This document shows positions 1,360 through 21,284 of a stretch of DNA of 23,201 nt, one piece after another. Source of the stretch: Sphingomonadales bacterium (GTDB taxonomy: Bacteria; Pseudomonadota; Alphaproteobacteria; Sphingomonadales; Sphingomonadaceae). The position numbers were made by a program, and so were the translations under genes. Every line of letters begins with the position of its first letter. The stretch's first letter is position 1. Below the pieces are notes generated by a model. It was not told the DNA's origin. It did not search any database and saw nothing but the letters and a program-made list of their open reading frames with translations. The stretch is from positions 1 through 23,201 of the forward strand of contig JAGPVK010000152.1 of assembly GCA_018067055.1 (NCBI GenBank), given 5' to 3'.

Positions 1360-1785
1360 CTAGTCCCACACCGACCGGAACCGGATCTTGTCGCCAATCA
1401 GGTCGGCCACGGTGAAGCCGTCCAGATGGCGCAGGAAGGCTTCGATACCGCCGGCGAGAACATGACGCAGACCGCAGGCCGGCGTGATGACACAGCTGCC
1501 GTCGGCTCCATCAAAACATTCGACGAAGGCGCCATAATCCTCGAAGATGCGGACAACCTGTCCGACATTGATTGCCGCGGCTGGCTGATTGAGCAACAGC
1601 CCCCCGCTACGGCCGCGAACGCTGTCGACAAAGCCCTCTGCCGCCAGGCGCTGCGCGACCTTCATCAGATGATTTTTCGAAATGCCATATTGCCGGGCAA
1701 TTTCGGCGATCGAATGGTGGCCATCATGCGCGGCCAGATACATCAAGGTGCGAAGCGCATAATCGGTTTGAACGGATAATCTCAT
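1360..1785 (-). CDS. nsrR: Rrf2-family iron-sulfur repressor, NsrR-like (nitric oxide sensor)
   Basis: A 141-residue Rrf2 protein beginning MRLSVQTDYALRTLMYLA, the usual NsrR opening. The winged helix covers residues ~22-65 (SIAEIARQYGISKNHLMKVAQRL, then VRGRSGGLLLN). Three cysteines, C90, C98 and C104, in the form C-x7-C-x5-C with CVITPACGL, match the cluster ligands of NsrR and related Rrf2 sensors. In known NsrR proteins nitric oxide attacks the [Fe-S] cluster and relieves repression of NO-detoxification genes. It is divergent from a truncated-haemoglobin operon, and two NsrR-like boxes lie between them, one starting 3 bases above this ATG, so it probably represses both itself and the operon. 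IscR and RirA are less likely given the residues around the third cysteine and the operon content. Confidence 0.87.
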   Translation of the reverse strand: MRLSVQTDYALRTLMYLAAHDGHHSIAEIARQYGISKNHLMKVAQRLAAEGFVDSVRGRSGGLLLNQPAAAINVGQVVRIFEDYGAFVECFDGADGSCVITPACGLRHVLAGGIEAFLRHLDGFTVADLIGDKIRFRSVWD

Positions 1786-1787
1786 AA

Positions 1788-1810
1788 AAGATGCATATCA
1801 TATATTGCAT
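1788..1810. promoter_or_regulatory. nsrR: NsrR-like half-site box adjacent to nsrR start
   Basis: AAGATGCATAT (1788-1798) matches the NsrR half-site AAGATGYATTT at 10 of 11 positions. The opposite half, 1800-1810, is degenerate (about 6 of 11). It directly abuts the nsrR start codon on the minus strand and could mediate autorepression. NsrR can bind single good half-sites in other bacteria, so this may be a half-site rather than a full operator. Confidence 0.45.
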
Positions 1811-1830
1811 TTAAACGCCAAGCGGCATAA

Positions 1831-1853
1831 ACAGTGCATATGAAATACATCTT
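1831..1853. promoter_or_regulatory. NsrR-type operator upstream of the globin operon
   Basis: This is an 11-1-11 arrangement. The right half AAATACATCTT (1843-1853) is a perfect match to the NsrR half-site in reverse orientation. The left half ACAGTGCATAT (1831-1841) matches at 7 of 11 positions, including the TGCAT core. The centre is G1842. The box ends 15 bases before the globin ATG, where a bound repressor would block transcription or the early initiation complex. Confidence 0.65.
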
Positions 1854-1868
1854 AACCGAGTCGAGGCC

Positions 1869-2333
1869 ATGACCGAACTTAGCTATGCCGAACGCGCCAG
1901 AGCGAAAAAGACAGCGCAGGCCAATGCGCTGGGTATTGATGATGCTCTGATTTCCAATCTGGTTGAGAAATTTTATGGCGCCATCCGCGCTGACGCGCTG
2001 CTCGGGCCGATATTTAAATCTCATGTCGCAGACTGGACGCCCCATCTCGCCCGGATGAAGGATTTCTGGGCGTCGGTGACGCTTGAGTCCGGTCGTTTTC
2101 GCGGCAATCCGATGCTCAAGCATATCGCGGTCGGCGGCCTCGACAGTCTGCATTTCGACCGCTGGCTGGTGCTCTGGAATCAGACACTTGATGATGTCGC
2201 CCCCAGTGAAGCGGCGGCTCAGGTCTTTCGCGAGGCTGCTGACCGTATCGCGTCCAGCCTGCTCACCGGCATCAAGGTCCAGCGTGGCGGTCTCGACGCC
2301 ATTTCCAAACCAGAGGAGAAGCAATCATGTTGA
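1869..2333 (+). CDS. Group III truncated haemoglobin
   Basis: A 154-residue globin with the group III (P-type) pattern: FYGAIRADALLGPIF in helix B with the B10 tyrosine (Y36), W56 and the run RMKDFWASVTL, then FRGNPMLKHI, in which H85 is the proximal haem ligand, and RWLVLWNQTL with the tryptophan near position G8 (W102). Group III globins bind O2 and NO tightly; in Campylobacter the homologue is induced by nitrosative stress. The usual length is ~130 residues, and this protein has short extra tails at both ends (a charged RARAKKTAQA segment and ISKPEEKQSC). It is the first gene of a coupled operon behind an NsrR-type box, overlapping the next gene by 7 bases. NO scavenging or dioxygenation is the likely role, inferred from family and context. 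Confidence 0.92.
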   Translation: MTELSYAERARAKKTAQANALGIDDALISNLVEKFYGAIRADALLGPIFKSHVADWTPHLARMKDFWASVTLESGRFRGNPMLKHIAVGGLDSLHFDRWLVLWNQTLDDVAPSEAAAQVFREAADRIASSLLTGIKVQRGGLDAISKPEEKQSC

Positions 2334-2770
2334 TGGATTTTCAGATCGAAGGCGGGCAGGCGATCACCGCTGAAATCAATGCGGAAATGCAGAACCTGTC
2401 CGAGCACTGCCGGGCCCCGTCACATGAAAGCCGGACTTTTGAGCTGCCCGCTTCGGTATGGATCACCATGTTCGGTTCTTATGCTGTGTTCTTCGCGGCC
2501 TTATTCATGGCAACCGGTCACGGCACGGCTGCGATATTCGCGCTGGTGATCAGCATCGCCTATACCATCATGTATTTCGGCACCGCGGTGGTCTTGAACA
2601 ATATCAGCGCAGCCGAACGAAAATCTCGGCCTTGGGCTCACTCCGCCAGTGGAATCGAAACGCAGACGGGCTGGATGGACAATAGAGCCGCTTACGCCCA
2701 GATTTTGACGGTACCGATATTGCTGGCGGTCTTTGCCTGCTGCTTTGCCCTTATCCGGGCCGTGATCTGA
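2327..2770 (+). CDS. Unrecognised three-helix membrane protein in the NO operon
   Basis: I do not recognise a named family for this 147-residue protein. A ~40-residue N-terminal region is followed by hydrophobic helices at ~44-63, ~67-90 and ~124-145, separated by a polar loop (AAERKSRPWAHSASGIETQTGWMDNRAA). Cysteines sit at C28 and as a CC pair within the last helix; one histidine is near the second helix (H65). The start is ATG 2327 behind GAGGAG; an ATG two codons later (2333) is possible. It overlaps the globin by 7 bases, and its TGA shares an A with the next ATG, so all three genes are probably translationally coupled. An inner-membrane partner for the globin or for NO-related respiration is conceivable, but this is inference from context only. 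Confidence 0.85.
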   Translation: MLMDFQIEGGQAITAEINAEMQNLSEHCRAPSHESRTFELPASVWITMFGSYAVFFAALFMATGHGTAAIFALVISIAYTIMYFGTAVVLNNISAAERKSRPWAHSASGIETQTGWMDNRAAYAQILTVPILLAVFACCFALIRAVI

Positions 2771-3075
2771 TGTCCGGCACTGCCAAGCCAGCCGCGCCTT
2801 ATGGCGCTTCACCGATCTTCGATGAGATCAGCCTGCCTGACAAACTGCGCAACGAGCATAGCACCAAGGATGGCACCTGGGGCCTGCTGCGGGTGCTGGA
2901 AGGAGAGGTCGAACTGGTCTTTATCGATCCGCCATCGCAGCGCCTGGTAACGGTCGATGACCCCGCGCCGATCCCGCCGCAGGCGCCACATTTTGTCAAA
3001 CTGAACGGCCCGGTGAAAATGCAGGTCGAGTTTTATCGGGAAAATCCCTTGCCGGAGGAAAATAGCACGGATTGA
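2770..3075 (+). CDS. DUF1971 / YeaR-TehB-like small cupin-type protein
   Basis: A 101-residue protein matching the DUF1971 pattern: KLRNEHSTKDGTWGLLRVLEGEVELVFIDP, then PIPPQAPHFVKLNGPVKMQVEFYRE. The fold is expected to be a small beta barrel, as in the C-terminal part of some TehB tellurite-resistance proteins and in E. coli YeaR. E. coli yeaR is induced by nitrate, nitrite and NO and is repressed by NsrR, which agrees with its place here as the third gene of an NsrR-linked operon. The biochemical role of the family is not established. The start ATG overlaps the preceding stop by one base (TGATG). Confidence 0.88.
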   Translation: MSGTAKPAAPYGASPIFDEISLPDKLRNEHSTKDGTWGLLRVLEGEVELVFIDPPSQRLVTVDDPAPIPPQAPHFVKLNGPVKMQVEFYRENPLPEENSTD

Positions 3076-19422: not shown

Positions 19423-21120
19423 CTAACCGGAGATGTTTTCCGAATGAGGCAATTTGCTGGGCGTGAGCTTGCGTTTGCCCCTCGCTACCTGCATTCGATG
19501 GGTTCCGCTAACCTCTGCCGTGCGGGCGATGCGTGAGGGGATGAAGAGCCATTCATTCGAAATATGGTCGGCCTGCACATCGAGCACCATATAGCCCCGC
19601 TGGCTTGTGTCACACCATGCAAGATCAGGACTGGCATCGACAAACCGCTTGGCGATCGCAATCGGATCACCGTGAAAACGCTTGTCCATGCCAAGCGAAG
19701 AGACGCCTTGCACGGCCAGTTCCACGCCCACTGGTTGATCGCCATGTTCGAGGTTGAACGCCCAAGCATTATGACTGTCGCCGCTGAGGACCACAAGATC
19801 AGCATTTGCATTTTGGGAAGCCTGCAGCAAACGCTGCCGTGCCGCAGGATAGCCTTCCCAGCGGTCCATATGCTGCGGAACATCAATTGCCGAAAGGCGT
19901 GCGGCCACCTTCATTTCCTCGAGTTTCTTTGCGCTCACCCGATCGTCCGGACCAAATAGGACCGCGAAATCTTCGGGTATACGGGACCGCCCCATGATCA
20001 CCTGCTGCGCCAAGATTTGCCATTTCCGACCGGATGTGGTGGATGCGGCAAGCCCATCCGCGAGCCATTGTTCCTGTTCCGCTCCCATCATCGTGCGCGC
20101 TGGATCATTGAGCGGCCCGTCGCGAAAAGCTATCGCTGCGGCAGCGAGATCTTTTTCGTGGCCGCTGATAGCATCCCGCAAATCGAGCTGCTCCGAGCGC
20201 GCGATCAGCCGGGTTTCCAAACGAAACAATGTGGCAAGATCGCCAAGCTGATATTGCGTATATGGCTTGCTGCGCATGGGCAGCCATTCGTAAAATGCCT
20301 GCACACCGGCGGCCATCCTATCCTTCCATCGGCCTTCCTTGGCCGGATCGTGATTAGCCGCTCCGTTGTTCCAGCTGTTGTTCACGGTTTCATGGTCATC
20401 CCACATGACGATGATAGGGAAGCGCCGGTGCAATTCCTGCAAACCGGGATCGGCGCGATAACTGGCATAGCGCTTGCGATAATCGGAAAGACTGACCGTC
20501 TCGTGCGCGGGCTCGATACCCCGAAGCTCTGCCATCCCTTCAAGCGCATCAGATCGGTCCAGCTTGGATTCGTAAATATAGTCACCAAGATGAACGAGCA
20601 GGTCGAGATCATCGCGGGCCGCTGCGTGGGCATAGGCATTGAACCAGCCCGATGTAGCATTGGCACAGGAAAAGACGCCGATCCGGAACTGGTTCAACGC
20701 ACCTTCGGGCAAAGTGCATGTGCGTCCGACGGGAGAAGCCTCGCCGGTGTCAGCGCGGAACCGATAATAATACCAATGTCCCGGCATAAGGTTTTCGGGC
20801 CGGGCATGAACGCAGAAATCTCTGGCCGGTGTAGACAGAGCAGAAGAGCGAGAAACAATCCGCTCGAATTGCTCATCTTCTGCAACTTCGACCTGCAACC
20901 AGGCAGGTGCTGCGTCGGGCGACACATATCTTGTCCACAATGTAACGCTCCGCTGTTCCGGATCACCACTGGCGACGGAGTGGGTAAATGCCGGTCGCGG
21001 CGCCGCACTTAGCGATCTGGGCATAAACAGAGTCGGGCTGATCGCCGAAGCCTGTAGGAGCGAGCGCCGCGAAACGGCGGGTAATGGCGAGGACGGCAGT
21101 GCAAATTTTTTCTTGGTCAT
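19423..21120 (-). CDS. phoD: Alkaline phosphatase D / phosphodiesterase, exported
   Basis: A 565-residue PhoD-family metalloenzyme that hydrolyses phosphate mono- or diesters outside the inner membrane. A Tat-like signal is visible (SRRSLLQASA, R18-R19). The N-terminal Fn3-like PhoD_N domain (FTHSVASGDPEQRSVTLWTR) precedes the catalytic domain: GVFSCANATSGWFNAY, LLVHLGDYIYESKLD, IIVMWDDHETVNNSWNNG and VVLSGDSHNAWAF supply the Asp, Asn, His and Cys residues that bind the Fe/Ca centre in PhoD. The length is normal. The C-terminus (LPHSENISG) appears native although the IS6 relic lies 7 bases beyond the stop. It is divergent from a TonB-dependent receptor with a 164-base gap, in which I see no clear Pho box. 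Confidence 0.94.
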   Translation of the reverse strand: MTKKKFALPSSPLPAVSRRSLLQASAISPTLFMPRSLSAAPRPAFTHSVASGDPEQRSVTLWTRYVSPDAAPAWLQVEVAEDEQFERIVSRSSALSTPARDFCVHARPENLMPGHWYYYRFRADTGEASPVGRTCTLPEGALNQFRIGVFSCANATSGWFNAYAHAAARDDLDLLVHLGDYIYESKLDRSDALEGMAELRGIEPAHETVSLSDYRKRYASYRADPGLQELHRRFPIIVMWDDHETVNNSWNNGAANHDPAKEGRWKDRMAAGVQAFYEWLPMRSKPYTQYQLGDLATLFRLETRLIARSEQLDLRDAISGHEKDLAAAAIAFRDGPLNDPARTMMGAEQEQWLADGLAASTTSGRKWQILAQQVIMGRSRIPEDFAVLFGPDDRVSAKKLEEMKVAARLSAIDVPQHMDRWEGYPAARQRLLQASQNANADLVVLSGDSHNAWAFNLEHGDQPVGVELAVQGVSSLGMDKRFHGDPIAIAKRFVDASPDLAWCDTSQRGYMVLDVQADHISNEWLFIPSRIARTAEVSGTHRMQVARGKRKLTPSKLPHSENISG

Positions 21121-21284
21121 GGCCGCCGGCTAACGCGCTGGCGTGACACATTAATTAAACGTCCGAACTATTTAAAAACCGACCAATAACTTTCACATTT
21201 AATACATGTTGCAGCAATCAAGCCGTCATCACCGACCGCTAGCGGACGCCCCATAACTGGTTCACTCAAAATTGGGGATATAAA

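Follow-up and report, generated by a model that had tools for sequence, protein, structure and literature searches.

What is the task of a group of four genes in which an Rrf2-family regulator diverges from a truncated haemoglobin, a small membrane protein and a cupin? This group occupies positions 1360 to 3075 of a 23,201-nucleotide stretch of DNA from Sphingomonadales bacterium (contig JAGPVK010000152.1 of assembly GCA_018067055.1; hereafter, the window), which is contig 14 of a fragmented, 80% complete assembly. The explanation that we favor, with a probability of about 0.6, is that these genes form a nitric oxide (NO)-response cassette, namely, an NO-inducible, NO-scavenging module that would stand in for flavohaemoglobin in this genus. 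The features of the cassette are as follows.

1360..1785, minus strand: Rrf2-family, NsrR-type regulator, 141 amino acids, with Asp8, Cys90, Cys98 and Cys104 (PF02082, TIGR00738 and 5n07 match)
1788..1810, plus strand: weaker NsrR-type site (site 2) adjoining the regulator start (matrix score 15.3)
1805..1832, plus strand: candidate globin promoter TTGCAT-16-CATAAA (by-eye reading and conserved block TTGC(A/T)TTTAA)
1831..1853, plus strand: NsrR-type operator 1, ACAGTGCATATGAAATACATCTT, 15 bases 5' of the globin start (matrix score 24.6)
1869..2333, plus strand: group III truncated haemoglobin (trHbIII), 154 amino acids (2ig3 alignment)
2327..2770, plus strand: membrane protein (MP), 147 amino acids, with three predicted transmembrane (TM) helices, a beta hairpin and a charged N-terminal stretch of 40 residues (structure model and hydropathy)
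2770..3075, plus strand: DUF1971/YeaR-type cupin, 101 amino acids, with invariant His30 and His74 (PF09313)

The initial annotation described a three-cysteine Rrf2 regulator divergent from three further open reading frames (ORFs), with overlaps of 7 bases between globin and MP and 1 base between MP and cupin, and this layout is exact as stated. The same gene set is seen again across the genus and the family, so that the arrangement is more than chance. We surveyed 196 genomes for MP and DUF1971, the genus of the host being represented by 32 genomes, and counted as neighbors those genes that lie at most 2 kb from a trHbIII gene on the same strand, after dropping the second pieces of the MP gene of G001 and of the globin gene of G014, each part of the same gene as a retained entry. 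MP matches come from 56 of the 196 genomes, that of the host included, and 29 of the 58 places counted are near trHbIII. At 34% identity or above, all 28 MP matches (the window's own among them) adjoin the globin, which is the conserved co-occurrence that the initial annotation had set as its test; below 34%, only 1 of 30 does (G074, 32%). DUF1971 was found at 64 places in 59 of the 196 genomes, with trHbIII as a neighbor at 59 of the 64; eight of these 59, in other sphingomonads, also adjoin a flavohaemoglobin gene. The exceptions come from G058, G114, G138, G165 and G193, and in G138 and G165 the DUF1971 gene is a divergent neighbor of flavohaemoglobin. In the host genus, trHbIII is present in 25 genomes and DUF1971 in 24; the search placed MP in 21, two of which have remnants, and the same seven genomes lack all three. 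The MP remnant of G002 was found only by reading. Judging by these counts, the cupin is the tightest partner of the globin, and its earlier treatment as an appendage is not borne out, given that DUF1971 stays when MP is lost and fuses to the globin.

Such fusions are another facet of the same association. Single ORFs that join globin and cupin are present at locus L048 (G011), in its 94% relative P0121, at L096 (G074, where MP follows) and in P0256, P0257, P0266 and P0269. Both domains were seen in P0121, P0257, P0266 (with an incomplete cupin part) and P0269, the globin falling below the Pfam cut-off every time; in P0256, both domains are precomputed. The source name of P0257 is 'truncated hemoglobin YjbI/tellurite resistance-related uncharacterized protein', and P0270-P0272 and P0274, which were found through their globin match, carry a precomputed DUF1971 domain. 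Globin and MP are joined as well: the L034 ORF, identical to P0241 from an alphaproteobacterial metagenome-assembled genome, has an MP half that the MP profile also matches (E 1.4e-13), and the second half of P0255 is MP-like by eye. These globin-MP-like fusions support the membrane link claimed for the cassette. More generally, natural fusions of the globin to the cupin and to MP suggest that these proteins work together.

The control of the cassette appears to reside in the divergent promoter region. Table 4 of PMC5320621 lists 27 NsrR sites of E. coli CFT073, from which we built a matrix to score 23-mers. The top score of the entire window, 24.6 (training median 22.5), belongs to 1831-1853 and was reached in 0 of 300 window shuffles; the NsrR-type box that the initial annotation placed at the promoter is, thus, the best such 23-mer of the window and stands just 5' of the globin. 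This operator 1 matches the E. coli ytfE site at 17 of 22 positions, and the best match to the NsrR consensus likewise falls directly 5' of the globin (17/22; 0/300 shuffles). Among 33 homologous intergenic regions, 25 score at least 20; the eight below 20 include both from other families (L034, L035). A blind test for an 11-1-11 inverted repeat in the window promoter alone was not significant (7/11 pairs, equalled in 115 of 300 shuffles), and it is the matrix and the conservation that carry the operator claim. By these two measures, an NsrR-type operator is present at the targets. In a second group within the genus, the operator is a near-perfect inverted repeat, with up to 10/11 pairs against the 7/11 of the window's own group. 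Site 2 scores third in the window, at a level reached in 15 of 300 shuffles; its half-site AAGATGCATAT ranks second among all 11-mers of the window and lies in a block conserved among relatives. The position of site 2, next to the regulator's own start, points to possible autoregulation. The globin promoter listed above was read by eye, and a sigma-70 consensus scan missed it.

The regulator belongs to the Rrf2 superfamily, with scores over the cut-offs (PF02082, 115.1 bits vs 30; TIGR00738, 111.2 vs 73.3). Among solved structures, it is closest to two NsrR sequences, 5n07 (NsrR of S. coelicolor; E 3.5e-18) and 5n08. In the alignment with 5n07, Asp8, a cluster ligand in NsrR, and all three cysteines are found, and they recur in 30 of 30 loci.

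The globin aligns with a single solved chain, the Campylobacter group III globin 2ig3 (E 1.3e-13), and this assigns it to group III; its score below the gathering threshold of Pfam Bac_globin PF01152 (17.2 vs 21 bits) concerns a detection threshold and not a definition of that group. Six key residues, namely, the distal Tyr36 B10, His59 E7, Trp67 E15 and Trp99 G8, the proximal His85 F8, and Phe49 CD1, align with 2ig3 and are present in 30 of 30 loci. The sources name its relatives group III truncated hemoglobins of Parasphingorhabdus or Sphingorhabdus. A single domain of 154 amino acids without a reductase domain, it is not a flavohaemoglobin, and no match to the model of the flavohaemoglobin Hmp was found in the 80% complete assembly of the host, in agreement with the absence of flavohaemoglobin that had been claimed for the window. 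Across the genus, Hmp exceeds the cut-off in 1 of 32 genomes, G017. The same genome (L010) is the only globin carrier of the genus that lacks DUF1971, and another gene occupies the cupin's place after MP. In other Sphingomonadaceae, gene groups with trHbIII, DUF1971 and flavohaemoglobin were seen at L076, L078, L079, L084 and L087; L088, L090 and L095 combine trHbIII and DUF1971 with a short match to an Hmp-like globin.

The cupin exceeds the gathering score of PF09313 (DUF1971; 69.2 vs 23.1 bits) and is related to the N-terminal part of the TehB homologue 3m70 (E 1.2e-4). His30, Trp37, Gly45, Pro70 and His74 are found in 43 of 43 selected loci, and the two invariant histidines make it look like a metal- or ligand-binding protein. 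E. coli YeaR is a DUF1971 protein as well. According to PMC5320621, yeaR is a known NsrR target and, with an induction of about 160-fold, has a place in the table of the 50 most induced E. coli CFT073 genes, where it is listed as hypothetical.

MP presents a different case. It has no family over the cut-off in Pfam or NCBIfam (the weak rows, DUF983, Trp_oprn_chp and ExoX, are far below theirs), so that the claim of "no known family" holds there, and none of the 120 listed relatives, of 219 found, has a precomputed Pfam domain. In the source records, its relatives at 71-92% identity appear as hypothetical proteins from Parasphingorhabdus or Sphingorhabdus. The structure model has three long helices with a beta hairpin before the third and a mean pLDDT of 75 (about 90 in the helices, below 50 in the N-terminal 35 residues). 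Foldseek found nothing in the PDB at E ≤0.001 and 21 matches at E up to 10, all unrelated; VIA-align gave only middling Z, to unrelated chains; and the alignment profile searched against solved sequences retrieved four rows of one receptor only (E at least 0.05), which we took as chance. The columns invariant in 21 sequences are P41, W45, Y52, F55, L59, F84, T112, G115, Q125, L127, P130, A134 and F136; near-invariance among the charged residues is limited to Asp4 and Glu34. The charges that lie outside the membrane are all confined to the N-terminal side and the TM2-TM3 loop, which would put these two parts and an N-terminally fused globin on the same side of the membrane. To judge from the globin, that side would be the cytosol; positive charges are only weakly in excess. 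Omega is 0.145 for MP, compared with 0.125 for the regulator, 0.132 for the globin and 0.134 for the cupin (28 pairs from 8 loci, with 27 finite for three genes), at synonymous differences of 0.56-0.60 per site, which are, hence, partly saturated. The intact MP, these ratios show, is constrained like its neighbors, by purifying selection.

And yet, MP can be lost. In a tree of 30 loci (from which G021, G111, G074, G518 and the loci from other families were left out), five nested lineages lack a full MP, each paired with kin that have one, and the regulator, globin and cupin are kept in all five. The pairings have support of 0.94-0.99 in four lineages and 0.72 for G031, where MP is absent. In-frame remnants that keep the N-terminus and the C-terminal end persist in G001 (67 amino acids), G014 (60) and G002 (44), whereas in G011 MP is gone and globin and cupin are one ORF. 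MP is likewise missing from G021, outside the tree, which has globin and cupin. The assemblies concerned comprise 180 (G001) and 30 (G014) contigs, both drafts, 5 (G002), 8 (G011) and 1 (G031); in G014 (L030), the globin next to the MP remnant lies in two reading frames, which is either decay or an assembly error. All three remnants retain the overlaps, of 7 bases with the globin and of 1 or 4 bases with the cupin. The simplest reading, albeit of three events, which are few, is that the cell tolerates the loss of MP but perhaps not an interruption of translation before the cupin. From the pattern of losses, MP is a dispensable part of the cassette.

These properties bear on the proposal of the initial annotation that MP is a reductase or quinone-linked partner that passes electrons to the globin. 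The linkage of MP to the globin and the globin-MP fusions would fit such a role, and proteins of about 530 amino acids (P0247 and kin), in which a globin is followed by a TM-like stretch and a CxxCH domain, hint that globins of this type can be wired to redox partners at the membrane. However, no histidine or cysteine is conserved across 28 MP sequences, which makes a haem or thiol redox role unlikely; MP matches no redox family and has no informative fold match; and the five losses left the globin in place. We consider a redox MP very improbable; a tether appears likelier. The CxxCH-type proteins are P0244-P0254 and P0273, mostly of about 530 amino acids, with a group III globin and a CxxCH domain that looks haem c-like by eye; P0247-P0249 and P0273 were read individually, and the second part of P0247 has no Pfam or NCBIfam name.

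The NO-response cassette that we favor would then operate as follows. The regulator, as an Fe-S cluster protein, would repress the operon by binding the operator at 1831-1853 over the candidate globin promoter; through site 2, it would probably repress its own gene too. NO would damage the cluster and thereby release repression. The group III globin would oxidize or otherwise scavenge NO, doing the job that flavohaemoglobin does elsewhere, with electrons that probably come from a general reductase of the cell rather than from MP. The DUF1971 cupin, constantly co-located with the globin in the same order and repeatedly fused to it, would be the core partner, presumably binding to or acting next to the globin. 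MP, which is linked to the globin, under purifying selection and fused to globins in distant proteins, would be an accessory that may anchor the globin to the inner membrane on its cytosolic side, where electrons are available and the respiratory chain, a target of NO poisoning, is close by. Of the membrane-linked NO-detoxification module initially envisaged, the co-occurrence, the operator, the cassette in place of flavohaemoglobin and the membrane link are supported; the redox partner on which the globin was to depend is not.

Several findings weigh against this reading, the first of them in the regulator itself. Its score is below the cut-off of the NsrR equivalog NF008240 (117 vs 182 bits) as well as that of the RirA equivalog NF008886 (122 vs 193 bits); with the former unmet, we label the regulator NsrR-type and do not file it as an equivalog. 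The marginally higher score on the RirA model leaves room for an iron response, that is, for a RirA-like iron or Fe-S sensor and a cassette that answers to haem/iron or low oxygen instead of NO, in line with which distant MP relatives occur near Crp/Fnr-type regulators and molybdenum-cofactor genes (L032). We deem this distinctly unlikely, in view of the fit of the operator to the E. coli NsrR matrix, the invariance of Asp8, a cluster ligand in NsrR, and the DUF1971 and NnrS neighbors, which point to NO. In other alphaproteobacteria (L034, L035, L040), MP relatives adjoin Rrf2 regulators and are accompanied by a globin or NnrS; at L040 (G576), a locus in which no globin was found, the MP relative is flanked by an NnrS gene (PF05940, 360 bits) on one side and a divergent Rrf2 regulator on the other.

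The composition of the cassette is the second source of difficulty. Five lineages have lost MP or keep no more than a remnant of it, and hence tethering cannot be essential; 29 of the 58 MP places, all below 34% identity and forming a distant branch, are away from any globin (L028 and L029, among the first 30 loci, have none); L025 (G111) has the cupin first and no regulator found in the stretch; and L010 lacks the cupin. Outside Alphaproteobacteria, trHbIII is a neighbor at 0 of 25 DUF1971 loci. That last count, together with the control of E. coli YeaR by NsrR (PMC5320621), lends some weight to the notion that the cupin acts independently as an NO-damage protein, like YeaR, and is merely co-regulated with the globin, the fusions being incidental read-throughs; the L048 fusion, in particular, was plausibly born from deletion of MP. 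But the second fusion, L096, retains MP downstream, several diverged fusions exist, and 59 of 64 DUF1971 places among the relatives are co-located with trHbIII, so we regard a merely co-regulated cupin as unlikely. The same set of 30 DUF1971 loci, derived from 40 places of which 10 gave no new locus, contains five from Alphaproteobacteria: three with trHbIII (L095, L141 and L144, the last being the window itself) and two without (L134, L136). A general linkage of DUF1971 to trHbIII in Pseudomonadota was, accordingly, rejected for the 30 loci seen. As for the distant MP branch in other sphingomonads, its members lie next to moaE/moaA-like (molybdenum-cofactor) genes at L032, L036 and L039 and next to Crp/Fnr-like regulators at L028, L029 and L032; at L028 and L032, these paralogues form blocks with a lipoprotein-like gene and the Crp/Fnr-type regulator. 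Crp and MoaE were confirmed at L032, the other neighbors being read by eye.

A bolder extension of the NO-response cassette, which we put forward as speculative and rather improbable, is that DUF1971/YeaR cupins are dedicated partners of these globins: the two-histidine cupin would dock on the group III globin and replace the reductase step of flavohaemoglobin, through re-reduction or the handling of haem or product, with MP tethering the pair. If true, this would provide the first molecular role for the strongly NO-induced orphan YeaR. The location of DUF1971 beside the group III globin, together with the fusions, in any case offers a concrete place to seek the function of YeaR, and distant proteins in which a globin of this kind is fused to the unnamed MP family suggest that the membrane is where some NO-scavenging globins of bacteria act.

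The cassette has partial counterparts among known systems. It shares with the E. coli NsrR regulon (hmp, ytfE, hcp and yeaR-yoaG; PMC5320621) an Rrf2 repressor, an 11-1-11 operator and YeaR among the targets, but differs in its group III truncated globin, in the DUF1971 gene within the globin operon or fused to it, and in the divergence of regulator and targets within one cassette. Campylobacter Ctb belongs to the same globin group, all six key residues being found in the 2ig3 alignment; there, control is by NssR (PMC3820574), whereas here an Rrf2 regulator takes the place of a Crp-Fnr one, cupin and membrane partners are present, and no Hmp-like globin was found in the host assembly. The Legionella operon of a truncated haemoglobin and a ferredoxin reductase, which the same source describes as NsrR-controlled, co-transcribes a truncated globin with a partner, as our cassette would, but pairs GlbN with a reductase, in contrast to another globin with a cupin and a membrane protein. 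With flavohaemoglobin Hmp, the cassette shares the presumed task of NO removal and the type of regulator; the globin, however, has no reductase domain, and Hmp itself was not found in the host assembly. A literature search that covered few subscription papers retrieved nothing on trHbIII with DUF1971 or with the MP family; the available part of PMC9686644 describes no such operon, nor was the trHbIII-DUF1971 combination found in the available parts of PMC4648194 and PMC10866078. The control of globins by NsrR, including that of a truncated-globin operon, has already been described (PMC3820574); the two partners and the fusions are what is new.

Finally, the window contains a second strong NsrR-type 23-mer, at 21188-21210, with the second highest score (24.0; 0/300 shuffles). 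It is kept in the three other genomes of the genus, out of 32, that have a long match (L151, L152 and L153, scores 24.1, 27.1 and 20.3); the entire 200-base stretch around it is 89-99% identical, so that its persistence is weak evidence of constraint. The site stands between a PhoD-like phosphatase gene (19423-21120, minus strand) and a TonB-receptor-like gene (from 21285, plus strand), both named by eye.

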